Part shown: positions 7,294 through 56,059 of the stretch, piece after piece | Position numbering within the stretch: the first letter of the stretch is position 1 | Layout of the letters: each line of letters opens with the position of its first letter | Source of the DNA: Anaerolineae bacterium | GTDB lineage: Bacteria; Chloroflexota; Anaerolineae; Promineifilales; Promineifilaceae | NCBI GenBank assembly: GCA_023382655.1 | Contig: JAHDWK010000006.1 | Coordinates: 248,001-312,000, forward strand | DNA length: 64,000 nucleotides | Direction of reading: 5' to 3' | The notes under the pieces: generated by a model | Told to the model about the DNA's origin: nothing | The model's database searches: none | Seen by the model: only the letters and a program-made list of their open reading frames with translations | Translations under genes and position numbers: made by a program

Positions 7294-7386
7294 GTCCTTT
7301 GTCCTTTGTCCTTTGTTATTGGGTAATTGGGTAACTGGGTAATTGCTCACCTTGTCACCCTGTCACCCTGTCACCTTGTCACCCTG
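7294..7386. repeat. compound array: GTCCTTT, GGGTAATT and TCACCCTG units
   Basis: Three unrelated short-unit arrays stand side by side: three 7-bp GTCCTTT (7294-7314), three 8-bp GGGTAATT/GGGTAACT (7321-7344) and five 8-bp TCACCTTG/TCACCCTG (7347-7386). Each unit type recurs elsewhere in the window. Confidence 0.85.
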
Positions 7387-7417
7387 TCCCCCCTCGCCTG
7401 CTCAAGTATACCCATTT

Positions 7418-9943: not shown

Positions 9944-9977
9944 AGACCTGACAGGTTTTTTGAAACCTGTCAGGTCT
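9944..9977. repeat. AGACCTGACAGG palindrome
   Basis: Arms 9944-9958 and 9963-9977 are perfect complements (AGACCTGACAGGTTT). Members of the same family are at 11295-11327, 49510-49542 and 55398-55442. Confidence 0.85.
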
Positions 9978-23315: not shown

Positions 23316-25781
23316 ATGTCTCTACCCAAACGGTACCACCCGCAAACGGCCGAACCCGGCCAACAGGCGGGCTGGCAAGAACAGGGCGTCTACTATTATG
23401 ATCCGGCAGCAGACGCACCGCGTTTCACCATTGACACCCCCCCACCCACCGTGTCCGGGCAGCTGCATCTGGGGCACGTTTACTCCTACAGCCAGACCGA
23501 TTTCATCGCTCGTTTTTGGCGCATGAACGGCCGTAACGTCTATTACCCCATGGGCTATGACGACAACGGTCTACCCACCGAGCGGCTGGTGGAAAAACGG
23601 CACGGCATACGCGCCGCCGATGGTGATCGGGCCACCTTTATCACCCACTGCCTGGCTGCCAGCGAAGAAGCAGAGCATGATTACCGCCAATTGTGGCAGC
23701 GGTTAGGGTTGTCCGTAGATTGGCGCTATAGCTACCGCACCATAGATGAGCATTCCCGCCGCCTGGCGCAGTGGTCGTTTATTGACCTGCACCGCCAGGG
23801 GCTGGCCTACCGGCAGCAGTCACCCACCATCTGGTGCCCGGAATGCCAGACGGCCATCGCCCAGGCAGACGTAGACGACCTGGAACGAGAAACAACCTTT
23901 TACACGCTGGCTTTTCGCCTGCCGGATGGGGCCACCTTACCCATTGCCACCACCCGCCCGGAACTGCTGCCCGCCTGTGTGGCGGCGTTTGTGCATCCAG
24001 GCGACGGCCGTTACCAATCCCTCATCGGCCAACCGGGCAACCCGGCCATAACCACCCCGCTGGGGCAAACCGTCCCCCTGCTGGCCGACCCCGCCGCCGA
24101 CCCACACAAGGGCACCGGCGCAGTGATGTGCTGCACCTTCGGTGACACAACCGATGTGGCCTGGCAAAAGACACACCAACTACCCATCATTGAAGCGATT
24201 GGGCGAGACGGCCGTCTCACCGCTGCCGCCCACCCCTATACCGGCCTGACGGTGACAGAAGCACGCCAGGCCATCATGGAGACGTTGCGGGAGCAGGGGG
24301 CGGTATTGACCGCCCAACCCATCCCGCAAACGGTGCGGGTGCATGAACGGTGTGATACGCCGGTGGAATATGTGGTCACGCCGCAATGGTTTATTCGTGT
24401 GTTGGATTACAAGGCAGATATGCTGGCAGCCGGGGAACAAATCACCTGGCAGCCACCACACATGCACAACCGTTACCGCCAGTGGGTGGAAAATCTCAGT
24501 TGGGACTGGTGCATCAGCCGCCAGCGCTTTTTTGGCGTGCCCTTCCCGCTGTGGTACTGCGCCGCCTGTGGCGCGGCCATCCTGGCCGATGAAGACGAGT
24601 TGCCGGTAGACCCGATGGTAGCACGGCCGTCTCACCCCTGCCCCCACTGCCACAGCACTGAATTCATACCGGAAACGGACGTGTTCGATACCTGGTTCAC
24701 CTCCTCCCTCTCGCCGCAAATTGCCGGGCAATGGCAGCACGATGACCCGTTATACAACCAGGTGTACCCCTTCACATTGCGACCACAAGGCCACGAAATC
24801 ATCCGCACCTGGGCCTTTTACACCATCGTCAAATCGCACCACCACTTTGGCACGGTACCGTTTGCCCAGGTAGCCATTTCCGGCTGGGGATTGGCGGCCG
24901 AAGGCATGGGCAAAATCAGCAAAAGTCGCGGCGGCGGGCCGATGTCGCCCTTAGCCATGATCGAGCAGTATTCGGCCGACGCTGTACGCTATTGGGCCGC
25001 CAGCACCGCCTTGGGCAAAGACGCCATCATCAGCGAAGAAAAAATCCAGGCCGGCGCCAAACTGGTCAACAAACTCTACAACGTCGCCAAATTCAGCGAA
25101 AGGTTCCTGTGCCCATCACCGATCACCGATTACCGACCACCGATTACCGACTTCACCCCCGCCGACCGCTGGCTGCTGGCGCACACCACCCGCCTGATCC
25201 AGCGCAGCACTTTTCTGTGGCAGCAGTATGATTACGCCACGGCCCGCAGTGAAACGGAAGCGTTCTTCTGGCGGGTGCTGGCGGACAATTACCTGGAGAT
25301 GGCCAAGATGCGGCTGTATGCCCAGGATGACGCGGCGCGGGGCGCGGTTTATGCCCTGCATCACGCCTTGCTGACGGCGTTGAAGCTGTTTGCGCCCATC
25401 CTGCCGCATATCACCGAAGAGATTTACCAGAGTTTGTTTGCCACGGCCGACGGTGCGCCTTCGATTCATCGGGCGCAATGGCCGGTGGCCGATCCCACCT
25501 GGCTGGATGACGGCGCATTGGCGGCGGGAGAGTTGTTGGTGGAGGTGGCTACGGCCGTGCGACGCCACAAAAGCGAACACAACCTGTCACCAGGGGCCGA
25601 ATTGGCCGCCCTCTACTTGAACACAGACGACGACCAGACCGCCCGCTGGCTGCCGCAAAGCCGCGCCGACCTGATGAGCATTACACGGGCACAAGAGGTA
25701 GTGGTGAACGGCCGTCTGCCGGAGAACGCGGTGATCATTAGCCATGAGCCAGTTCAGGTGGCGGTGGTTCGTAATCCGTAA
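23316..25781 (+). CDS. valS: valyl-tRNA synthetase
   Basis: An 821-residue class Ia synthetase. The first active-site motif is HLGH (51-54) in PPPTVSGQLHLGH and the second is KISKS (533-537); the CP1 editing domain (about 170-330) has the expected TTRPELLPACVA pattern. A pair of CxxC motifs (WCPEC near 170, YCAAC..CPHCHS near 410-445) suggests bound zinc. It is on the short side for ValS and seems to lack the long C-terminal coiled coil. Bases 25115-25149, five 7-bp ATCACCG-type units, are translated as SPITDYRPPITD between catalytic and anticodon domains. The end VVRNP and the TAA come from a CGTAATC array. Expression is predicted to be T-box controlled. Confidence 0.93.
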   Translation: MSLPKRYHPQTAEPGQQAGWQEQGVYYYDPAADAPRFTIDTPPPTVSGQLHLGHVYSYSQTDFIARFWRMNGRNVYYPMGYDDNGLPTERLVEKRHGIRAADGDRATFITHCLAASEEAEHDYRQLWQRLGLSVDWRYSYRTIDEHSRRLAQWSFIDLHRQGLAYRQQSPTIWCPECQTAIAQADVDDLERETTFYTLAFRLPDGATLPIATTRPELLPACVAAFVHPGDGRYQSLIGQPGNPAITTPLGQTVPLLADPAADPHKGTGAVMCCTFGDTTDVAWQKTHQLPIIEAIGRDGRLTAAAHPYTGLTVTEARQAIMETLREQGAVLTAQPIPQTVRVHERCDTPVEYVVTPQWFIRVLDYKADMLAAGEQITWQPPHMHNRYRQWVENLSWDWCISRQRFFGVPFPLWYCAACGAAILADEDELPVDPMVARPSHPCPHCHSTEFIPETDVFDTWFTSSLSPQIAGQWQHDDPLYNQVYPFTLRPQGHEIIRTWAFYTIVKSHHHFGTVPFAQVAISGWGLAAEGMGKISKSRGGGPMSPLAMIEQYSADAVRYWAASTALGKDAIISEEKIQAGAKLVNKLYNVAKFSERFLCPSPITDYRPPITDFTPADRWLLAHTTRLIQRSTFLWQQYDYATARSETEAFFWRVLADNYLEMAKMRLYAQDDAARGAVYALHHALLTALKLFAPILPHITEEIYQSLFATADGAPSIHRAQWPVADPTWLDDGALAAGELLVEVATAVRRHKSEHNLSPGAELAALYLNTDDDQTARWLPQSRADLMSITRAQEVVVNGRLPENAVIISHEPVQVAVVRNP

Positions 25782-27002: not shown

Positions 27003-27099
27003 CTAATCCGTAATCGGTGATCGCTCATTGGTCATTTGGAGATTGGGAGCTCACCTTGTCACCCCTTCACCTTGTCACCCCTTCACCTCATTACCCCCC
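27003..27099. repeat. mixed heptamer and CACCTTGT octamer arrays
   Basis: TAATCCG-type units near 27003-27022 and six 8-bp units (CACCTTGT, CACCCCTT, CACCTTGT, CACCCCTT, CACCTCAT, TACCCCCC) at 27052-27099. Confidence 0.8.
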
Positions 27100-44472: not shown

Positions 44473-45549
44473 ATGACCCTTACCACCCTTGTTCAGCAGC
44501 GACTAAGTAATCAACGCATTTCCGCCACCCCCTTCACCCAACCCGTGGAGGTAGTACACTGGTTGGGCGCTGTGCAAGCGCAAGATTACGCCGGGGCCAA
44601 ATGGGCGCTGGGGCTGCGGCTGCAAAACGCCACCGATCATCTGGTTGAACAAGCCTTTAACAGCGGCGACATTTTGCGCACGCATCTGCTGCGCCCCACC
44701 TGGCACTTTGTCACCCCCACCGACATCCGCTGGCTGCTGGCGCTTACGGCCCCCCGCGTTCACGCCGTCAACGGCACCATGTACCGCCAGCTCAAATTAG
44801 ATAACCCCACCTTAAAGCAGAGCAATGATGTACTGGCGCGCGTGTTACAAAACGGCCGTTACCTCACCCGTGATGAACTCCGCCCCATCCTGCAAAACGT
44901 CGGCATCGCCACAGATAACAACCTGCGCATGACCTACATCATGATGAACGCCGAACTAGATGGGGTTGTGTGCAGCGGCCCCCGGCGCGGCAAACAGTTC
45001 ACCTACGCTTTGTTGGACGAGCGCGCGCCACAGGCCAAAATCCTGGCCCGCGAGGAAGCATTGGCCGAACTGACCCGGCGTTACTTTGCCAGCCGCGGGC
45101 CAGCCACCATACATGACTTTGCTAAATGGTCTGGCCTGACCCTGGCCGACGCCCGGCGTGGCCTGGAAGCCGTCAAAAACGAATGGGAACAGGCCACCGT
45201 GAACGGGCAAACTTACTGGTTTCCGCCGGCCGTACCGTTCTCCGTCTCCACTTCCCTCCACGCCCATCTGCTGTCCATCTACGACGAGTATATTTCTGGT
45301 TACAAAGACCGGAGTGCAATGGTCACGGCCGTTGTCGGCGACCAGCTAATTGCTCTGGGCAATGCGCTTTACTACATTATGGTTATAGATGGTCAGGTTA
45401 TCGGCAGTTGGAAACGCACCCTGCACAAAGAGAAAGTCGTCATTGAGACTAACCCTTTTAGCCCATTAACCAATGCTCAGGAACAGGCAATTGTGACGGC
45501 CGTACAGCAATATGGCGCATTTCTCGGACTCACTGCGGAACTGGCCTGA
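44473..45549 (+). CDS. AlkZ-like winged-helix DNA glycosylase family protein
   Basis: A 358-residue protein of the HTH_42 (AlkZ/YcaQ) family with tandem winged helices. AVQAQDYAGAKWAL carries the QxQ motif (Gln35, Gln37) associated with catalysis in AlkZ-type glycosylases that remove alkylated or cross-linked bases; LLRPTWHFVTPTDIRWLL and FASRGPATIHDFAKWSGL are further family marks. Whether this member is an active glycosylase is not proven. ATG 44473 gives the normal N-terminus; the longer frame from 44254 runs inside the upstream gene and is rejected. Confidence 0.78.
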   Translation: MTLTTLVQQRLSNQRISATPFTQPVEVVHWLGAVQAQDYAGAKWALGLRLQNATDHLVEQAFNSGDILRTHLLRPTWHFVTPTDIRWLLALTAPRVHAVNGTMYRQLKLDNPTLKQSNDVLARVLQNGRYLTRDELRPILQNVGIATDNNLRMTYIMMNAELDGVVCSGPRRGKQFTYALLDERAPQAKILAREEALAELTRRYFASRGPATIHDFAKWSGLTLADARRGLEAVKNEWEQATVNGQTYWFPPAVPFSVSTSLHAHLLSIYDEYISGYKDRSAMVTAVVGDQLIALGNALYYIMVIDGQVIGSWKRTLHKEKVVIETNPFSPLTNAQEQAIVTAVQQYGAFLGLTAELA

Positions 45550-45572
45550 AGATATAACATGCCATGAGCCGT

Positions 45573-45601
45573 TTGGAATTCCCCTCCCCTTTCGCTACAA
45601 T
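45573..45601 (+). promoter_or_regulatory. promoter of the surface-glycosylation cluster
   Basis: TTGGAA (45573-45578) and TACAAT (45596-45601) with a 17-bp spacer. The leader to ATG 45760 would contain a strong hairpin array. Confidence 0.5.
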
Positions 45602-45687
45602 CCTCCCTGTTTGCGCCTTATGTGAAGCGCGTTACACAAATTTTACCTTTTACTAAGGCAGCCATTAACCAGGCTGTGTATAAAAAC

Positions 45688-45736
45688 CGTGATGCGTGAT
45701 GCGTGACCCGTGAATCGTCACGCATCACGCATCACG
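45688..45736. repeat. CGTGATG heptamer array, 20-bp hairpin
   Basis: Seven 7-bp units (CGTGATG, CGTGATG, CGTGACC, CGTGAAT, CGTCACG, CATCACG, CATCACG). Arms 45688-45707 and 45717-45736 are perfect over 20 bp. Confidence 0.88.
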
Positions 45737-45759
45737 ATTTACGGAACACGGTTCACGCT

Positions 45760-48700
45760 ATGACAACGGACGCCGAGAGCATGACGGAAGAGCAAGAAGC
45801 AGGGGAGGACACGGCCGTACCCACTCCACCGCCGCCTCCCGAAAACAACATATTCCCCACCGAACCTGCGCCGCGCTCATTCAGCCTGGAAAACATCGCT
45901 TTCCTGTTTGTGCTGCTCGTCTTATTGGTGGGCGCATACTTCCGTTTCACCGGCCTCAATTGGGATGGCAGCTATCATTTGCATCCCGACGAACGTTTCC
46001 TGACCACCGTTGCCAACCAATTGCAGCCCGTCTCTTCCCTCACCGGCTACCTGCGCACCTCCGAATCCACCCTCAACCCATACAACAAAGGGTTTGGGTT
46101 TTACGTGTACGGCAACTTCCCCATGACCCTCACCCGTTATGCCGCCGAGCTGCTCACCCGCGCCTGCACCACCCTGGCCCAAAACAACCCAGACCAACCG
46201 CCCCCCTGTCCCTACGTCTTCACGGCGTATGATGGCGTGCATCTGTTCGGCCGTTTCCTGTCTGGGTTAGTAGATTTAATCTCCGTCCTCTTTACCTTCC
46301 TCATGGGGCGGCGGCTGTATGGCTGGAAGGCGGGCATATTAGCGGCGCTGCTGCTGGCATTGGCCGTCATGCCCATCCAGCAGTCCCACTTCTTCACCAT
46401 GGACAATTGGGCCGCCGCCCTGACAACGATCACGCTGTACACGGCCGTGCGCGCTGCCAGTCTTGGTGACCAAAAAGCCACCCCGCGCCTGCATTGGTAC
46501 GCCCTCTTTGGTCTCTTCTTCGGATTGGCCGCCGCTTCCCGCATCAATATCGCCCCCTTAGCCCTCATCGTCAACGTCGCCGCCGTCATCTGGCTGCTAC
46601 AGCGCGGTCACAGTTGGGACAGCCTGCTCAAAACTGCGCCGGGCCACGCCGACATCCAGCGCGTCATCCTGGGCGTCTTGCTCGCAGCCGTCATTTCCAT
46701 CATCACCTTCCGCCTGGCCATGCCCTACGCCTTCGCCGACGCCACCATCATCCGCGAGCAAACCCTGGCCGAAACCGGGCAGGAGCCAGACGCATTGCGG
46801 GCGACTTTAGGCGCGGTCTTTGGTTTCAACCCCACATGGCGCAGCAACATGTCCGAAATTCAACGGCTGCAAGAGCCAGACGCCTCTTTCCCCCCTGCCC
46901 TGCAATGGACCAACCGCACCCCCATCCTCTTCCCGCTGACCAACATGGTGCTGTATGGCATGGGCCTCACCGCCGCCATTGCCAGTTGGTTTGGCTTCTT
47001 TTGGGCCTTGTGGCGCATTTTGCGGGGACGGCCCGAGTGGGTAGCCCACGCCATTCCGGTGGTGTGGACGGGCATGTATTTCCTCTTTATGGGTACCCGT
47101 TGGGTCAAATCCATCCGCTACTTCCTGCCCATCTACCCCGCCCTCTTCCTGCTCGGTGCATGGGCGCTGCTCACCATCTGGCAACTGGCCGCCCAACGCG
47201 ACCACGACCGGGGCCAATTCTTCCGGCGCACTTTAGCCGCCGGGTTGATTTTGCTCACCGTCGTCCCCAGCTTCCTGTGGGCCAACGCTTTTGTGCAAAT
47301 CTACCATAACCAGTTCACCCGCGTCGCCGTTTCCCCCTGGATGTTTGAGAATATCCCCACCGGGGCCACCTTAATTTATGAAACGGCCGCAGGTGAACAA
47401 GAGCTACATTTGCCGTTGAAATGGTTTGAATTTGTGCCCGGCGGCCCCACCCTGTTCCTCGGTTTTACGCTGCCGGAAGATGGCACGGTCACGGCCGTGC
47501 GTTTCAACTATTTGCAACTGCCACCCGAATTGGGCAACGGGAGTTCACAAACCCATACCTTTGCCGCCAACCTCCCCTCAGTCGGCGGTGAAAGCATTAG
47601 CACCGACATCACCGTGACCGGCGAACGCGCCCCGGCTTTGCTTGACCTGCCAGACACACCCCTCACCGGTGGCATGGCACAGCAGTTACAGGTACAGATG
47701 CTGTCTAATGGGCGCGTTTTGGCCGATACCAGCCGCTTCCTCACCGAACATTGGGATGATTTGCTGCCGGTGGCGCTGGACGGCCGTTACCCCTTTGGCA
47801 GCTACTACACCGAAGTGCAAAACAGCCAGCGCCCCGTCACCAACCCCGACGACATGCTCAAACGGGACGAACTGGTGGCCTGGCTGGACGAAGCCGACTA
47901 CGTGGTGATGAGCAGCCAGCGCGCCGTCTGGCATCTGCCCCGCCTGCCCCTCACCTACCCGTTGATGATTCGTTATTACGAGGCGTTGTTCAACGGTGAA
48001 CTCGGTTTTGAACTGGTCAAAGAACAACATGCCGATCTGCACATTGGCCCGCTCTATATCAGCGACACCGCCGGAAAGATTAGCTGGGGCAAACCGCCCA
48101 ACGTTGGTTGGCCACCACCCGGCGACCTGGCGGCTGAAGAAGCATTCAGCGTCTACGACCATCCGCCGGTGTGGATTTTCCACAAGACGGCCGATTACGA
48201 CCGGGACAAAATGGTGCAGTTGTTGGGCGCGGTAGACCTGACACAGCAGATGTTCCAAACGCCGGGACAGGCCACGCGCACCCCCAACGCCCTCTTCCTC
48301 AGCCCGGCAGTGTTGGCCGTGCAGCGGGCCAACGGCACGTTCAGCGAGCTATTTAACCTGGACGGTGTGCTGAACCAGAACCCAACGCTGGCGGCGGTGG
48401 TCTGGTGGTTGGCGGTGGTGCTGTTGGGCTGGCTGGCGTTTCCGCTCACGGCCGTAGTCCTGCGTGGCCTGCCCTCCAAAGGCTACCTCTTTGCCCGCGT
48501 CTTGGGGATGCTGCTCGTCTCCTACTTTGGCTGGCTGCTGGCGAGTTATGATATTTTGCCCAACACTGCCGGGACGCTGTGGTTGGGTGTGCTTCTGTTG
48601 GGCATCGCCAACCTGCTGATCTTCCTGCGCCGCCGCGCCGACATCGCCGGTTGGGTGCGGCAAAATATAACCTACATTCTGACGGTCGAGGCCATTGCCC

Positions 48701-50904
48701 TGGCGCTGTTTCTGATTGCCATTTTCATCCGCCTGGGCAACCCCGACCTGTGGGACGTGATTTGGGGCGGCGAAAAACCGATGGATCTGACGTATTTCAC
48801 GGCCGTACTCAAATCCACCACCTTCCCGCCCTATGACCCCTGGTTTTCCGGGGGCTACCTCAACTACTACTACTACGGCTTCGTGTTTGTTGGCGTCTTG
48901 CCCAAACTCTTGGGCATCATGCCCACCCTGGCCTACAACCTCATCCTGCCCATGCTGTTCAGCTTCACCGGCATGGGCGCCTTTGCCCTGGCGTATGATC
49001 TGGTCTTTCACTATGACAAGGTGACAAGGTGGCCAGGTGACAAGGTGACAGAAGATCACCCCGGCGTCCCCGCCGCCGTCACCTTGTCACCCCGTCATCC
49101 CCGCCGCCGTCACCTTGTCACCCCATCACTTACCGCCGGTCTCATCGCCGCTGCCCTCGCCGTGCTGCTGGGCAACCTGGCGCAGGTGGGGGTGATTACC
49201 AATGCCTGGTACCGGGCGGGCAACCCGACGGTTGAGGAGATTGTGCCGGTGGTGGGTACGGCCGTGCGCACCCTGGAAGGTGGCATCAGCCTCATCGGCG
49301 AAAAAACCGCGCCCATTTACCCTGGCGACTGGTTCTGGACCGCCTCCCGCGCCATCAACGCCGACCCCGGCGAAGCAGGGCCAATTACCGAGTTTCCCTT
49401 TTTCACCTTCCTCTATGGCGACCTGCATGCCCATATGATCAGCCTGCCGCTGATGCTGCTGGCGCTGGCCTGGGCGGTGGGATTGGCCTTGCAGCCATCG
49501 GGCGTGACCAGACCTGACAGGTCTGGCAGACCTGTCAGGTCTTCATGGTGGGAAACGGCCGTGCAGTGGCTCAGCGGCAGTATCATCTTTGGCGTGTTTC
49601 AGGCGGTCAACAGTTGGGACTTTCCCACCTTCCTGGTGATTGGCGCGTTGGCCATCTTTTTTTACAGCTACCAGATGCATGAGAGCAAATTGAGCCTGCC
49701 CATGTTGGGCACGGCCGTGATGCAGATTTTCCTGCTCTGGACGCTGGCTTTCATTTTTTACCTGCCCTTCAGCAACAATTTTGCCGCCGGGTTCAATTCG
49801 GTGGCGTTGTGGGATGGTTCGCAGACCTATCTCAGCCGCTACCTCATCATGTGGGGTCTGTTCCTCTTTTTTATCGTCGGCTACCTGTTCATCGAGTTCC
49901 GCGATTGGGCCAAAAGCTGGACGTATGAGGGGATGCAGGCCATGGAGATAGCCAGGATACCGTTGTTGATTACGGCCGTTCTCTACGTCCTGCTCCTACT
50001 GATATTATGGCGGCTGCAATACTGGGTGGCACCGGTAGCCCTGACGCTAACACTGGCCGCCGGTCTGCTTGGTTTGCGCCGTCGGCTCTCGCCTGCCCGG
50101 CGCATCATCCTCATCCTCATCGCCTCCGCATTGGGGCTGACGCTGTTCGTGGAATTTTTTGTGGTGGAAGGCACCCTCGACCGGATGAACACGGTGTTTA
50201 AGGTGTATATGCAGGTGTGGTTGATCATGAGTGTGGTGGGCGGGGTCACGGCCGTGTGGTGCTGGCAGCGCCTCAAAAACGCCCCAACCGGCAAAATCGT
50301 CTGGGCTTCGGCGCTGGCCGTGCTGGTCGTTGCCGCCGCCCTTTACCCCATCCTGGCTACCCGCGCCAAATGGGACATCCGCATGAACAAAGACGCCCCA
50401 CACACCCTCAACGGCATGGACTTCATGCCTTACATCACCTACCAGGAAAACGGCCAGACCGTGCCGATGGTCTTTGACCACGATGCCATCTTATGGATTC
50501 AGCGCCACCTGCCCGGCTCCCCCGTTATCGCCGAAGGGTACAGCGACAACTACTACCGCTCCATCACCAATCGCGTGGCTATGTACACCGGCCTGCCCAA
50601 CATCATCGGTTGGAGCGGTCACCAGCGGCAGCAGCGGGCGGCCCTGCCCGGCACGATGATTGACATGCGCATTCAGGATGTACACCTGCTGTACACCACC
50701 ACCAGCATCCCCGAAGCGCTGAGCATCATCCAGAAATACGGCGTGGAATACATCTATGTGGGGCAATTGGAATGGGTGTTATATAACCCTGAGGGTTTGC
50801 TGAAATTTGAGCAAATGGCGGACGCCGGTTTGTTGGAAGAGGTCTACCGCAATGACGGGACAAGCATTTATCGCGTCACGGACGCTCCGGTAAATACACA
50901 ATGA
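45760..50904 (+). CDS. giant membrane glycosyltransferase: GT39/ArnT-like domain fused to a Chlor_Arch_YYY (DUF2298) domain
   Basis: A 1714-residue polytopic protein. Residues about 40-640 form a GT-C module with [13 protein letters not shown] in the first outer loop, the acidic site used by PMT/ArnT-type sugar transferases. The second half resembles Chlor_Arch_YYY proteins: a [23 protein letters not shown] lead, [15 protein letters not shown], and the [20 protein letters not shown] motif near residue 1040. It probably transfers or processes lipid-linked sugars at the outer face of the membrane. Two repeat elements are translated in frame, at 49012-49128 and 49510-49542. The gene overlaps the next by ATGA, so they are coupled. 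ATG 45760 lacks a clear Shine-Dalgarno. Confidence 0.8.
49012..49128. repeat. GGTGACAA/TTGTCACC repeats inside the YYY gene
   Basis: A coding copy of the CACCTTGT intergenic family: 14-bp inverted arms 49036-49049 and 49078-49091, with a further copy at 49109-49122, and a 31-bp tandem duplication (49067-49097, 49098-49128; one mismatch). It is translated as a charged, Pro-rich loop. Confidence 0.85.
49510..49542. repeat. AGACCTGACAGG palindrome inside the YYY gene
   Basis: 16-bp perfect arms (49510-49525, 49527-49542) identical in design to the intergenic family; encodes [13 protein letters not shown] between membrane helices. Confidence 0.9.
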
Positions 50905-53600
50905 GTATGACGCCGATTGATGAAATTTTGATGGTGCTGCGCTGGTGGCTGGCACTGGTGGTGGTGGGCACGGCCGTAACCCCCCTCACCCTCCACCTGC
51001 TGCATCGCCTGCCTGACCGGGGCTACGCCTTCGCCAAATTGTTGGGGCTGCTGCTAACCAGTTATCTTTTTTGGCTGTTGGGCAGCCTGGGTATCTTGGG
51101 CAATAACCTGGGCGGTATTCTGGTGGCGCTGCTGGCAGTGGTGGGCTTTTCCATTTGGGCCTGGCAGCAGGGGCGGGCCGAAATCATTGGCTGGCTGAGT
51201 GGTAACTGGCGCTACGTACTGCTGACAGAACTGCTGTTCCTGGTCGTTTTCCTGCTGTGGGTATGGGTGCGGGCACAAAATCCGGCCATTGTAGCTACCG
51301 AAAAGCCGATGGATTTCGCCTTTTTGAATGCCATCGGCCGCAGCCCGTCTTTCCCGCCACTGGACCCCTGGCTCTCCGGGTACGCCATTAGCTACTACTA
51401 CTTTGGTTATCTGATGCAGTCGGTGTTGGCGCGGCTCACGGCCGTGCCCGAACCGTATGCGTTCAATCTCGCCATTGCCTGGTTGGTAGCGGGTACGGCC
51501 GTGGGCGCATTTGGCCTGGTTTACAATCTGGTGGCGGCTTACGGGCCGCAGGCCAGGCGAGCCGCCATAGGTCTGGGGCTGGTGGCGGCCATGGCCATCC
51601 CCATTGCCGGCAATCTGGAAATTGTGTTGGAAGCAGCGCATGGTTACGGCTATGGTTCGCCGCAGTTTTGGGCCTGGCTGGATGTGCGCGACCTGAGCGA
51701 TGCGCCCGACCCGACCACACCACCGCGTTATGAAAATGCCTTCTGGTGGTGGTGGCGCTCCTCCCGCCCTATCAACGAATACAGTTTAAGTGGTCAGCGC
51801 ATCGAAGGGTTAGAACCGATTGTGGAGTTCCCCGCCTTCAGCTTTATCCTGGGCGACCTGCACCCGCATGTGATGGCGCTGCCGTTTGCCTTTCTCAGCC
51901 TGGGCGTGGCGCTGGCATGGTATTTGGGTTTTGACGCAAAGGCGCAAAGGGGCAAAGAGGGCAAAGAAGAAGAAGGAGAAGAAAAATCTGCGGAATCTGT
52001 GAAATCTGTGGATTCATTCTTAGCGCCGTTGACGGGATTGGTGCGGGAGGTGGGGGCGCCGTTGTGGCTGCTGACGGCCGTGATCCTCGGCGGCCTCTCT
52101 TTCCTCAACACCTGGGACGTGTTGATTCACCTCTTTGTGGTGTTGGGCGCATTTTTTCTGGCGCAGTGGCGCAGCCGGGGCTGGTCGAGCGAAATCGTGG
52201 TCAAGACATTTTATCTGGCGCTGCTGCTGGTGATCCCGGCAGTGTTGTTTTATTTGCCATTCTATTTTGGCTTTCGCTCTCAGGCAGGCGCGCCCTTCTT
52301 GCTGCCCATGCTCAACCGCCCCACGCGGATGGCGCAGTTTCTCATCGTTTTTGGTCTGCCGTTAGGCACAATTACGGTTTTGCTGATGGTGTTGGCGATC
52401 AAGCAGCGATTCCGGCAGTGGAAAGTGGGGGTGGGCACGGCCGTGTCCTTTCTCCTGATTCTTTTCCTGCTGGCGCTGCTCTTTAGCTGGGTTGTGGCCA
52501 CCTCGGCAGAAGGGGCTGGCCGGGTGATCAATCTGGCGGCGGAATTGGGCATCCCCCTAGCGACACGACCAGAAGGTTTAGCGCCAGGGTGGGCAGTTAC
52601 GGCCGTGTTTGCCATCCTACCTGCCTACCTGCAAGCCCGCCTGGCCTTCCCCGCTCTCACCTTGCTGCTGGCTACCCTCCTCGCCCTCGCCGTCATGGTC
52701 TTAATGGACACGGTGACAGGGTGGCAAGGTGAAGGCGGCGAAGACGCCGCGGTGACAGAAACGTCTCCTGTCACTCCTTCCCCCCTTCACCGTCCGATTG
52801 TGGCAATCGGCGTCACCGTGTCACCACTGCCGTTCGCCTTGCTGCTCATCATCACCGGCATTTTGCTGACGCTGGGGCCGGAATTTTTGTATTTACGGGA
52901 TAATTTTGGGGTGCGGCTGAACACCATTTTCAAGTTTTATTACCAGGCGTGGGCATTGTTTGGCGTGGCTGCTATCTTTGGGCTGTATGCGCTGTGGCAG
53001 GCCACGTCTGGCGCCACAAAGATCGTGCCAGTGTTGACGACGGCCGGCTATGGGCTGGCGCTGCTGCTGTCGCTGCTCTTTCCGTTTTACGCCGTGCAGT
53101 CCCGCGCCGTCGAGTTTCGCGGTCGGGTAGGCGCTGAATTCCGCCAGCCGCCCACGCTCAACGGGCTGGCAGCTATGCAGAACTTTAACTTTGACGAATA
53201 CGCCGCCATTTTATGGCTGCGCGAAAATGCCGAGGGGGCGCCCGTCATTTTGGAGGCGGTGGGTGGGCAGTATTCGGAGTACGGCCGTGTCTCCGCCAGC
53301 ACCGGGTTGCCCACCCTGCTTGGCTGGGCCGGGCACGAATACCAATGGCGCGGCAGTTCCACGCAAGAACCGGCCGTGCGTGACCCGGCCGTGCGCGATA
53401 TTTACACCGCTTCCACCTGGGAAAACAGTAACGCCGCCCTGCTGTTGAATGATTATGGCGTGGAACTCATCTACCTGGGCCAACTGGAACGCAACACATA
53501 TGGCCTGCTCGGCCCGGCCCTGGATAAATTCAGCGACCGATTGGAAGTGGCGTACCAAAATAACTCTGTTACGATTTATCGGTGGCTGCCAGAGGAATAA
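50901..53600 (+). CDS. Chlor_Arch_YYY (DUF2298) membrane protein
   Basis: An 899-residue polytopic protein, paralogous to the C-terminal half of the preceding gene: [40 protein letters not shown], and [20 protein letters not shown] with the YYY motif, followed by [22 protein letters not shown] 50901 overlaps the upstream TGA (ATGA). Two loops are made of repeat-derived sequence: 51937-52015 (charged [15 protein letters not shown] followed by [11 protein letters not shown]) and 52709-52790 ([18 protein letters not shown]). The C-terminal soluble part (about 780-899) includes [16 protein letters not shown]. The biochemical role of YYY proteins is not established; linkage suggests surface glycan assembly. 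Confidence 0.8.
51937..52015. repeat. repeat-like insertion coding a charged loop
   Basis: Short-unit sequence such as GGCAAAGAGGGCAAAGAAG and AATCTGTGAAATCTGTGG encodes a highly charged loop between membrane helices in the second YYY protein. I infer a dispersed repeat from its style; no second copy is seen in this window. Confidence 0.5.
52709..52790. repeat. GGTGACAG repeat sequence inside the second YYY gene
   Basis: GGTGACAGGGTGGCAAGGTG and a later GGTGACAG...CTGTCAC pair belong to the TCACCCTG intergenic family but are translated here. Confidence 0.6.
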
Positions 53601-53606
53601 GATTGG

Positions 53607-53634
53607 GAGATTAGAGATTGGAGATTGGAGATTA
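53607..53634. repeat. GAGATTG heptamer array carrying a start codon
   Basis: GAGATTA, GAGATTG, GAGATTG, GAGATTA. The only reasonable start of the following gene, TTG 53618, lies in the second unit. Confidence 0.75.
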
Positions 53635-55393
53635 TTCAAACACCCCTTTAGTTGAATCACCTGCACAAAGCTGGTGGGAACGGCTGACAATTGCTGATGG
53701 TTTGTTTGTCCTGGTCGTGATCCTGGGTAGTGTGCTGCGTTTTGTGGATTTAGGGCGCATACCCCTTTCCGCAGCCGAGGCAGAACTGGCTTTGGCCGTC
53801 TGGCGCTTCTGGCAGCCGGGTAACGCCGAGATTGCTCTGAGCAGCCCGGCCTATTTCACATTGACCAGCCTGCTGACGCAAATTTTTGGCTTTAGTGATG
53901 GCGTCATGCGGCTGGTACCGGCGCTGTTTGGACTGGCGGTGGTTTGCCTGCCCTGGCTGCTGCGGCGGCAGTTAGGGGATGCGGGCGCGCTGGTAGTTTG
54001 TGGATTTCTGGCGATTTCGCCGCTCAATGTCATCTTGTCACGGACGGTGGGGGGTGAGGCCATTGCCCTGTTTGCCGTGTTTTTGTTGGCGGTAGCAGTG
54101 ATGCGATATGCGGACACGCCGGCACTGAGCGGGGGCAAAGTGGCCGCGCCTCACTGGCTCTATCTGGCAGCGGCGGCTATGGCTTTAGGCTTTACCAGCG
54201 CCCCCCTCTTCTACAGCGGACTGGTCACACTGGTGATCGTATGGGTCGTCATCCGGCTCTTGAAACTATCACTGTTCCCCGAAAGAGAACCTCTTGACCG
54301 TCGTACCTGGCGCAATACGCTGTTGGTGGGCGGCGGTGTTTTTGTCGCTTTTAGCAGCAAACTGCTTTGGGTCACCGCCGGTTTTGGCGGTTCGGCGCAA
54401 ATTTTGGGTACGTGGGTAGCCCAAATCGGTGGTGATGACAGTGGGCGTATCCTGGCTGACCCGTTTCTGGCGTTGGCGCGATATGAACCGGCGTTGGTCA
54501 TTTTAGGTGTGGTAGCCGTTTTGTGGGCATTGTGGCGCGCCTCTGTCTCTGGACTGGCGCTGGTTTACTGGTTGCTGGCGGCGCTCATTCTCATGCTATT
54601 TCAGCCGGGCATAATGAGCAATGCAGCCCTGGTCACGCTGCCTGGCTACCTGTTGGTCGGGCTGCTGGCAGGGTTGATCTTATCCGAACGTCCTATGACC
54701 GGGCTGACCTGGATTGTGGCCGGCGGTGTCTTTTTGTTTTGCATGTTGATGCTGGTGAATCTGGGCCGTTTTGTGCGCGTGGTGATATTTGACCCCAATG
54801 AGATTCAATATCTGGCAATGATGATCATAGGTCTGGCACTGCTGGCGGTGCTGCTGTATCTGGTATTGACGTTGGATGTCACGGCCGTGACCCAGGGCCT
54901 TCTCTTGGGTCTTATTGCCTTCCTGGTGATCATTACCTGGGGCACGGGCTGGTGGCTGGGCCATCTGGCGGCCAATGATCCCCGCGAACGCTGGGTGCAA
55001 TCAGCAACGGATAGTGACATTCGCCTGTTGGTGACTACGCTGCAAAGCCTGTCGTCCCAACTGTCGGGCAGTGATACGGATTTGGATGTAGCCAGTAGTG
55101 TAGACACGACCGTGCTGCGCTGGTATTTGCGCAGTTTCCGTAATGCCCGCATCGGCCAGACGTTACCGGCCGGCGGGGCGGACGTTCTTATCACCTCGGC
55201 CCAGGCAGAACCGGCGCTGGCCAACAACTACAGCGGGGCAGATTTTGGCCTGTCGCTCTATAAAAACCCGCCGGAACAACAAGTCATCAATGTCCGCACA
55301 TTTACCGATACGTTGCGCTGGTGGTTTTTCCATGACAGCCCGGCACAACCCGCCAATGAGCGCGTGATTGTGTGGGTGAAGGCGCAGGAGTGA
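53618..55393 (+). CDS. polytopic GT-C-like membrane protein
   Basis: A 591-residue membrane protein with about a dozen hydrophobic segments and a C-terminal soluble part (about 465-591). The first loop VDLGRIPLSAAEAELALAVWRF resembles the acidic loop of ArnT-like glycosyltransferases, and the position in the YYY cluster supports a sugar-transfer or polymerisation role, but key catalytic residues are uncertain. No ATG or GTG lies near the N-terminus; TTG 53618 within a GAGATTG repeat is the probable start, giving the N-terminus MEIGDYSNTP. Confidence 0.62.
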   Translation: MEIGDYSNTPLVESPAQSWWERLTIADGLFVLVVILGSVLRFVDLGRIPLSAAEAELALAVWRFWQPGNAEIALSSPAYFTLTSLLTQIFGFSDGVMRLVPALFGLAVVCLPWLLRRQLGDAGALVVCGFLAISPLNVILSRTVGGEAIALFAVFLLAVAVMRYADTPALSGGKVAAPHWLYLAAAAMALGFTSAPLFYSGLVTLVIVWVVIRLLKLSLFPEREPLDRRTWRNTLLVGGGVFVAFSSKLLWVTAGFGGSAQILGTWVAQIGGDDSGRILADPFLALARYEPALVILGVVAVLWALWRASVSGLALVYWLLAALILMLFQPGIMSNAALVTLPGYLLVGLLAGLILSERPMTGLTWIVAGGVFLFCMLMLVNLGRFVRVVIFDPNEIQYLAMMIIGLALLAVLLYLVLTLDVTAVTQGLLLGLIAFLVIITWGTGWWLGHLAANDPRERWVQSATDSDIRLLVTTLQSLSSQLSGSDTDLDVASSVDTTVLRWYLRSFRNARIGQTLPAGGADVLITSAQAEPALANNYSGADFGLSLYKNPPEQQVINVRTFTDTLRWWFFHDSPAQPANERVIVWVKAQE

Positions 55394-55397
55394 GACG

Positions 55398-55442
55398 AGA
55401 CCTGACAGGTTGGCAACCAATGGTTGCCAACCTGTCAGGTCT
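55398..55442. repeat. 22-bp AGACCTGACAGG palindrome
   Basis: Arms 55398-55419 and 55421-55442 are perfect over 22 bp around one base, between the GT-C-like gene and the ECF sigma gene. Likely terminator or attenuator. Confidence 0.9.
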
Positions 55443-55450
55443 GTAAAAGT

Positions 55451-56059
55451 ATGATTTTAGAACAAACACTGCTACCCCGGTCTGAGGCCGCTCCGTATGC
55501 CGACGTAGAAAACGAGGCGGTGATTGCGCGCTGCCTGGTGGGTGAGGAAGCGGCGTATGTGGCGCTGTATAACCTGTATGCCGGGATGATTTACCGGCTG
55601 GTTTACAGTATGTTGCAGGATCGGGAAGATGCGGAAGAGGTGCTGCAAGATAGTTTTGAATACGCCTTCCGCAAATTAGGTGACTTTGACGCGCACAAGT
55701 CAGCGTTTAAGACGTGGCTGTATCGCATTGCCATCAGCCGCTGCCACAACAAGCGGCGGCGCAAATGGCTGCCTACCTTCTCGCTCAGCCATCAGGACGC
55801 CCGGCAAGCAGCAGATGAGGAGACGCCCACACCCGATGAAACGGTGCGCCTGACGGAAACGCAGCAGGCGGTATGGCACGCTTTACAACAGTTGACGCCC
55901 AAGCTGCGGGAAACGGCCGTCCTCCGTTATTACGAAGGGCTGTCTTACCAGGAAATCGGCGACATCCTGGGCATTCCGGCCAAGACTGCCGAATCCCGGA
56001 TGCGGTTGGCGCATCAGGCGTTGAGAGATCTGTTGCAGGAGCAGCTAGACAGACCCTAA
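55451..56059 (+). CDS. ECF-type RNA polymerase sigma factor
   Basis: A 202-residue sigma factor with region 2 (about 25-95; YNLYAGMIYRLVYSML, DAEEVLQDSFEYAFRKL and FKTWLYRIAISRCHNKRRRK) and region 4 (about 140-195; LRETAVLRYYEGLSYQEIGD, ILGIPAKTAESRMRLAHQAL). It lies inside the surface-glycosylation cluster with a membrane partner downstream, so it may control these genes in response to envelope stress (inference). ATG 55451 is just beyond the palindrome. The ending DRP plus TAA is encoded by the AGACCCTAAGGG palindrome, exactly as in the GH31 gene. Confidence 0.88.
   Translation: MILEQTLLPRSEAAPYADVENEAVIARCLVGEEAAYVALYNLYAGMIYRLVYSMLQDREDAEEVLQDSFEYAFRKLGDFDAHKSAFKTWLYRIAISRCHNKRRRKWLPTFSLSHQDARQAADEETPTPDETVRLTETQQAVWHALQQLTPKLRETAVLRYYEGLSYQEIGDILGIPAKTAESRMRLAHQALRDLLQEQLDRP

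Follow-up and report, generated by a model that had tools for sequence, protein, structure and literature searches.

Here we describe short repeats that are translated within protein-coding genes of an Anaerolineae bacterium (Promineifilaceae). The DNA analysed is a stretch of 64,000 nucleotides (contig JAHDWK010000006.1, positions 248,001 to 312,000), referred to below as the window. Two neighbouring genes for membrane proteins carry four repeat stretches, loops A to D (Table 1; loop C spans 51934-52014), all in frame within the open reading frames (ORFs). The repeats recur throughout the genome, mostly between genes, and the same loops of related species often hold other repeats. We consider it probable (roughly 0.8) that hairpin-forming repeats proliferate mainly in intergenic DNA, and that in-frame copies without stop codons survive at unconstrained sites of proteins, where they turn over rapidly.

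The initial annotation had read four stretches of the two genes as repeats. All four are repeat DNA, and at least four families are represented, which rules out a single origin. The cluster in loop A is real. Tandem Repeats Finder reports TGACAAGG in 4.6 copies at 49014-49050, followed at 49056-49124 by 2.2 copies of a 31-bp unit that contains the TCACCTTG octads. With at most one mismatch TCACCTTGTCACC has 12 matches in the window against 0.04 expected, and folded as RNA the loop reaches -60.4 kcal/mol (z -9.2 against dinucleotide shuffles). Loop B is a perfect palindrome, as had been claimed, with 16-nt arms and a 1-nt centre (fold z -5.5); AGACCTGACAGG, at the same tolerance, has 10 matches in the window against 0.08 expected. 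The stretch given as 51937-52015 is made up of two adjacent families, CAAAG octads and AATCTG units. The CAAAG array is weak when taken alone (two matches at three mismatches, equalled in 9 of 100 shuffles), the AATCTG array has one match in the window against 0 expected, and loop C as a whole forms no significant hairpin (RNA fold z -0.31). Loop D is an octad hairpin (-63.3 kcal/mol, z -4.4) that had been ended too early, at 52790; some 35 nt more belong to it, including the right arm.

Table 1. Repeat stretches, host genes and intergenic copies in the window
Feature	Position	Strand	Remarks
Gene 1, long membrane protein	45703..50904	+	1733 aa counted from first GTG
Gene 2, Chlor_Arch_YYY / DUF2298 membrane protein	50901..53600	+	899 aa
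Loop A, octad array	49012..49128	+	TGACAAGG octads (left arm 49014-49053) facing TCACCTTG octads; translated
TGG codon in loop A octad unit that otherwise has TGA in frame	49030..49032	+	
Loop B, perfect 33-bp palindrome AGACCTGACAGGTCTGGCAGACCTGTCAGGTCT	49510..49542	+	translated
Loop C part 1, CAAAG octad array	about 51934..51966	+	translated
Loop C part 2, AATCTG array	about 51985..52014	+	translated SAESVKSVD
Loop D, worn octad hairpin	52709..52826	+	left arm 52709-52735, right arm 52813-52825; translated
Octad array, intergenic copy	7347..7392	+	
Octad array, intergenic copy	27051..27097	+	
Palindrome, intergenic copy	9944..9977	+	18 nt past predicted stop codon
Palindrome with longer centre, intergenic copy	55398..55442	+	4 nt past predicted stop codon

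The initial annotation had named the absence of these elements from other loci of the genome as its refuting condition, but copies elsewhere are plentiful. The whole source genome (G000) has 110 matches to TCACCTTGTCACC, 237 to AGACCTGACAGGT, 18 to CGCAAAGGCGCAAAG and 57 to AATCTGYGNNATCTGYGG, and each reversed pattern, used as a control, has 0. Outside the source genome the reversed controls gave single matches in G023, G002, G018, G001, G014 (for two patterns), G024, G028 and G032. A de novo search of 1.264 Mb of the source genome found 295 hairpins with perfect arms of at least 12 nt; 90 of them are singletons, 6 pairs occur, and the rest form 20 families with three or more members each. 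Two kinds of repeats can be distinguished. The first comprises compact palindromes of about 33-65 bp (AGACCTGACAGG..CCTGTCAGGTCT and cousins), and the second comprises head-to-head arrays of 7- or 8-bp units (TGACAAGG, GATTGGA, GCGTGAT, TGAGCAGG). Direct arrays of short units also exceed chance, judged by the arrays in the window and by the genome counts against reversed patterns. Across 40 genomes, the source included, repeat numbers vary by lineage: the palindrome half-site ranges from 0 to 488, and the GATTGGA heptad is found 31 times in the source genome and 282 times in G002. In 22 copies examined, the AGACC palindrome has fixed ends (it starts with AGACC and finishes with GGTCT) and unrelated flanks, and is either 33 or about 45-65 bp long. 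Its median distance to the nearest stop codon is 10 nt, and the other hairpin classes are alike in this respect. GATTGGA-type heptads also lie at 53600-53633 of the window, immediately past the gene 2 stop and before the next gene.

The repeats had been thought to accumulate where extra residues are harmless, in loops between membrane helices. This is not where most of them are. So that the families would not be picked from the finding itself, repeat words were learned from the intergenic parts of contigs C1 and C2 and two parts of C6, all outside the window, which yielded 394 recurrent 12-mers. These words make up 6.5% of the intergenic and 0.34% of the coding DNA, and are thus about 19 times denser between genes; the reversed words cover 0.07% and 0.035%, respectively. 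Placed with a purpose-built simple codon-bias gene caller, 23 of 28 palindrome clusters are intergenic, 3 are at edges or mixed and 2 are genic, and the 19 octad clusters comprise 12 intergenic, 2 mixed and 5 genic ones. Among 894 genes longer than 300 nt, 32 have at least 24 nt of learned words in their interior (0 for reversed words). Gene 1 ranks fourth, with 98 nt.

Pfam scans covered 18 of the 32 repeat-bearing genes, and two of these had no match. The named hosts are a ketoacyl-synthase protein, a hydantoinase, an O-antigen ligase, a glycosyltransferase, an ABC/MacB protein, several PMT-like membrane proteins, a CheA-like protein, GMP synthase, DnaE, MurD and PFOR. The AGACC palindrome is in frame in gene 1 and MurD, and octad hairpins are in frame in an ABC transporter, a formate dehydrogenase and a PMT-like protein. 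In GMP synthase the repeat is a heptad hairpin, and the stretch it encodes amounts to about eight residues extra relative to the best PDB chain. The MurD palindrome could not be counted as a clean insertion; its PDB alignment has a variable region and a gap of only 5 residues. Since the hosts include GMP synthase, DnaE, MurD and PFOR, the phenomenon is not specific to membrane loops, and a restriction to such loops is ruled out. Translation of repeats is a genome-wide property, and membrane loops are one sort of tolerant place. A further gene of the window (23316-25781) has a translated repeat of a heptad family, PSPITDYRPPITDFTP, at about residues 603-612.

The two host proteins belong to TIGR03662 (Chlor_Arch_YYY; 475.6 and 513.8 bits against a curated cut-off of 300.25) and to Pfam DUF2298 (356 and 388.7 bits against 27.8). 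In gene 1 this region lies at the C-terminal end. The genes overlap by 4 nt, and the start of gene 1 is uncertain, the gene caller having chosen 45760. All four segments lie between predicted membrane helices, as the initial annotation had it. They were also described as hydrophilic, which fits loops A, B and C (mean hydropathy -0.93, -1.28 and -1.05) and only the core of loop D, whose mean is +0.18 with the boundaries as cut here. In an AlphaFold model of gene 2 (18 sequences; mean predicted local distance difference test score, pLDDT, 69.3), residues 345-372 and 610-638 fall below a pLDDT of 50 and are flanked by helices. Loops C and D thus lie within low-confidence stretches between helices, as expected of tolerant sites. 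Searches with gene 2 gave no match among PDB sequences up to E 1, and its fold had no Foldseek match better than E 0.27. Its named relatives are metagenome-assembled genomes (MAGs) of Anaerolineae, some labelled Promineifilum.

The octad arrays carry a signature of the reading frame. Three consecutive TGACAAGG units contain a TGA in each frame. In genic arrays on the sense strand, the unit that falls in frame has TGG in 6 of 6 cases, and the remaining units have TGA in 19 of 19 (20 of 20 when overlapping windows are counted). The in-frame unit of loop D has its TGG at 52722-52724. Intergenic units comprise 63 with TGA and 6 with TGG. In the ABC transporter, the formate dehydrogenase and gene 1, only the in-frame unit differs, which suggests filtering of otherwise intact elements. 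The change to TGG may predate the arrival of the element in genes, since intergenic TGG units exist too.

A formate dehydrogenase alpha gene (G000:C2:92197-94600, L113), which also bears a translated octad hairpin, has an in-frame TGA located after NNVDHCARL and before HSSSVAGL. This is the place of selenocysteine in such enzymes, so the gene probably encodes a selenoprotein.

Both genes were extracted from relatives and the loop DNA was read directly. Loop A consists of TGACAAGG octads in the source genome and of heptad hairpins in G002 and G020 (GATTGGA) and in G018 (GAGACTGG). In G015 it has TCATCCC heptads, in G022 an unrelated palindrome, and in G001, G003 and G004 octads of the CAAAG or CAGAG type; no repeat is evident there in G010, G012, G016, G017, G019 and G021. 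At loop B, G000, G002 and G003 have the AGACCTGACAGG palindrome, and G001 and G004 have other palindromes. Five congeners, 82-94% identical in DNA over these genes, were compared pairwise. Of the 40 comparisons of one pair at one loop, 27 (5 for A, 7 for B, 6 for C and 9 for D, each of 10) show loop DNA no more similar than shuffled pairs are at their 95th percentile, and the flanks are 80-97% identical in all 40. G001 and G003 have 94% identity across the part of gene 1 that both share; between them the identity is 97% in loop A, 64% in loop B and 41% in loop D. Replacement has recurred, because the groupings implied by different loops conflict. The loop B palindromes of G001 and G003 differ at 8 positions, all of them mirrored, so the arms change in step. 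A linker of the ABC transporter and a loop of PFOR show a like turnover. The ABC site has TGACAAGG in the source genome and TGAGCAGG units in G001-G004. Each of the five genomes has repeats of both words, so the commonest word of a species does not alone decide what a site contains.

Each loop was also scored for repeats or hairpins against windows of the same gene. Loops in the top 5% number 14 of 29 (A), 16 of 28 (B), 13 of 28 (C) and 11 of 29 (D) in members of the family, and 4 of 25, 2 of 10, 4 of 51 and 11 of 54 in distant Anaerolineae. The clear palindrome in loop B of G004 was split by the alignment and is scored as a miss. The initial annotation had suggested that the repeats lengthen these proteins. 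Median lengths agree with this, since at every one of the loops the family (29-30 sequences) exceeds distant Anaerolineae (25 sequences for gene 1 and 54 for gene 2): 87 against 63 nt for A, 45 against 24 for B, 69 against 33 for C and 93 against 78 for D. However, many of the changes among congeners are replacements of one repeat by another.

G005, of the same genus, has family matches of only 4, 0, 0, 0 and 0 and no gene 2 match; its ABC and PFOR orthologs are 86-88% identical despite the near absence of the repeat families, and its ABC linker has a repeat of its own, around GGGCCACACCC. At loop A of gene 1, locus L060 (G008) has an array of an 18-base unit, CAACCTGTTGCTGTAGCT, coding for QPVAVA repeats. 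The unit is a multiple of three, so its expansion keeps the frame.

Under the proposed explanation, elements would arise or insert at many sites, and copies that disrupt the frame or the fold would be lost. In-frame copies free of stop codons would stay where the protein tolerates added or altered residues; such residues would be harmless there. The retained copies may keep growing, shrinking, changing jointly in both arms or being swapped, and the sequence of the loop would thus be written by whichever repeats a lineage has. The linker would end up longer and for the most part hydrophilic. Plausible agents for the arrays are replication slippage and copying templated by hairpins, and a single-strand transposase is a plausible agent for the palindromes. 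A REP-associated tyrosine transposase (RAYT; Y1_Tnp, PF01797) is a doubtful mover of the AGACC palindromes, as matches do not track copy number: there are five in the source genome, one weak match in G019 with 488 half-sites and a strong match in G010 with 0. Another palindrome family, GTAGTAGGCGATTTATCGCC, has 10 hairpins in 1.264 Mb of the source genome and starts with GTAG like tagged repetitive extragenic palindromic (REP) elements; it may be a better candidate RAYT substrate than the AGACC palindrome. A role of the AGACC palindrome as a terminator was rejected: none of the 22 copies has five consecutive T in the 12 nt that follow it. Scanning 45000-56000 for terminators gave 12, and shuffles gave 13.0.

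Several observations weigh against this explanation. By exact learned words gene 2 ranks only 45th, with 12 nt. An ORF excludes in-frame stop codons by definition, which partly accounts for the lack of in-frame TGA in genic arrays. The genomes compared are all draft assemblies, most of them MAGs. Several members of the family have no repeat in a given loop. Loop D scores above chance in distant Anaerolineae as well, so the effect is in part due to the ordinary simple sequence of an unconstrained loop. Neither target-site duplications nor exact empty sites were found by eye in the aligned ABC, PFOR and loop DNA, so insertion, as opposed to growth on the spot, is not proven.

That last result suits an account in which slippage and template switching build the 7-8-bp arrays and palindromes locally, in unconstrained loops, with no movement between loci. 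The arrays vary in unit number and their units are worn, the mirrored differences in loop B are such as template-switch repair would give, and a pentadeca-type repeat is private to G005 at the same ABC linker. However, identical words of 13-18 bp occur at dozens to hundreds of sites per genome, with none for the reversed words in the source genome, and the fixed ends of the AGACC palindrome stand in unrelated flanks. Slippage alone is disfavoured because it would not pick identical words, and we regard a purely local origin as rather unlikely. We are equally hesitant about a bolder version of events in which coding loops are rewritten in place. Active hairpin-templated conversion or single-strand transposition would there swap families between sister species, keeping the hairpin and the frame and changing the amino acids wholly, and would be a regular, family-wide source of new linkers.

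Selection for structure is a far less probable explanation. Hairpins in the mRNA between helices would slow the ribosome and aid membrane insertion, and would be kept while the sequence drifts. The strong folds of loops A, B and D agree with this, as do the differing hairpins at loop A (G002, G018, G020) and loop B (G001, G004) and the mirrored changes. Yet loop C is not a hairpin, the inverted repeat at loop A does not exceed windows of the same gene in G001, G003 and G004, neither score is raised there in many relatives, and the same elements occur in soluble enzymes. Accidental repeats from base composition and codon bias can practically be dismissed, since shuffles and reversed words yield almost none, although short two-copy matches are plentiful in GC-rich coding DNA, many of them owed to the octamer ACGGCCGT.

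This palindromic octamer has 150 sites in the window, where 1.64 are expected, and 2437 in 1.264 Mb of the source genome, or about 1.9 per kb. It is denser in genes than between them, and 1205 of its 2169 coding sites are translated as T-A-V. Many members of the family have it frequently, but the loci of G012, G016 and G019 have 0 occurrences, and 54 distant loci, 758 kb in all, have only 7. In habit it resembles cyanobacterial HIP1; the word is not mentioned in the available part of PMC4390886.

The alternation of several repeat families at the same coding loops, among species as close as these congeners, allows translated repeats to be counted at each site as they arise, spread and are replaced. 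How repeat DNA feeds protein evolution becomes directly testable. A caution of a practical kind concerns similarity searches. In such genomes, linker peptides like DKVTRWQGDKVT, SRITHHASRIT and GDWRLEIGDW are translated repeat DNA and not conserved motifs, and they could join unrelated proteins there.

Heptanucleotide repeats are known from the P6b hairpin of the Nostoc tRNA-Leu intron. Our literature searches, with most subscription journals outside their coverage, found no description of such repeats in Chloroflexota genes. Of the published cases compared, Rickettsia palindromic elements and heptanucleotide arrays come closest. REP elements are high-copy, mostly extragenic palindromes of 20-40 bp tagged with GTAG or CGTC (PMC3733652). 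The AGACC palindrome is like them in being short, in its copy number (237 half-sites in the source genome) and in its largely intergenic clusters. It is unlike them in lacking a GTAG or CGTC end (22 copies, by eye), and Y1_Tnp matches do not track its numbers. The TAACTGA heptad arrays of Beggiatoaceae and cyanobacteria are mostly intergenic with some in ORFs, their placement being restricted by stop codons in one orientation; they are mainly direct, with one indirect repeat, and lie upstream of start codons (PMC4679880). The repeats described here share with heptad arrays of the long simple sequence repeat (LSSR) and short tandemly repeated repetitive (STRR) kind the direct 7-bp arrays, mostly between genes and in some cases inside ORFs. 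They differ in that they often form head-to-head hairpins, lie nearer stop codons, have both 7- and 8-bp units and, at coding loops, exchange one family for another from species to species. In-frame palindromic repeats are known chiefly from Rickettsia, where Rickettsia palindromic elements (RPEs) occur in many copies, in frame in unrelated genes, and lengthen the products; they are about 150 bp long, and nearly half of those described lie in ORFs (PMC10969869, citing Ogata 2000, 2002). Palindromic repeats in frame in several unrelated genes are likewise present here. However, palindromes of 33-65 bp and arrays of about 40-120 bp fall short of the RPE length, and the families are many, include tandem arrays and have a clear intergenic excess. 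The system works like RPEs and is built like the heptad arrays, without necessarily being a member of either.

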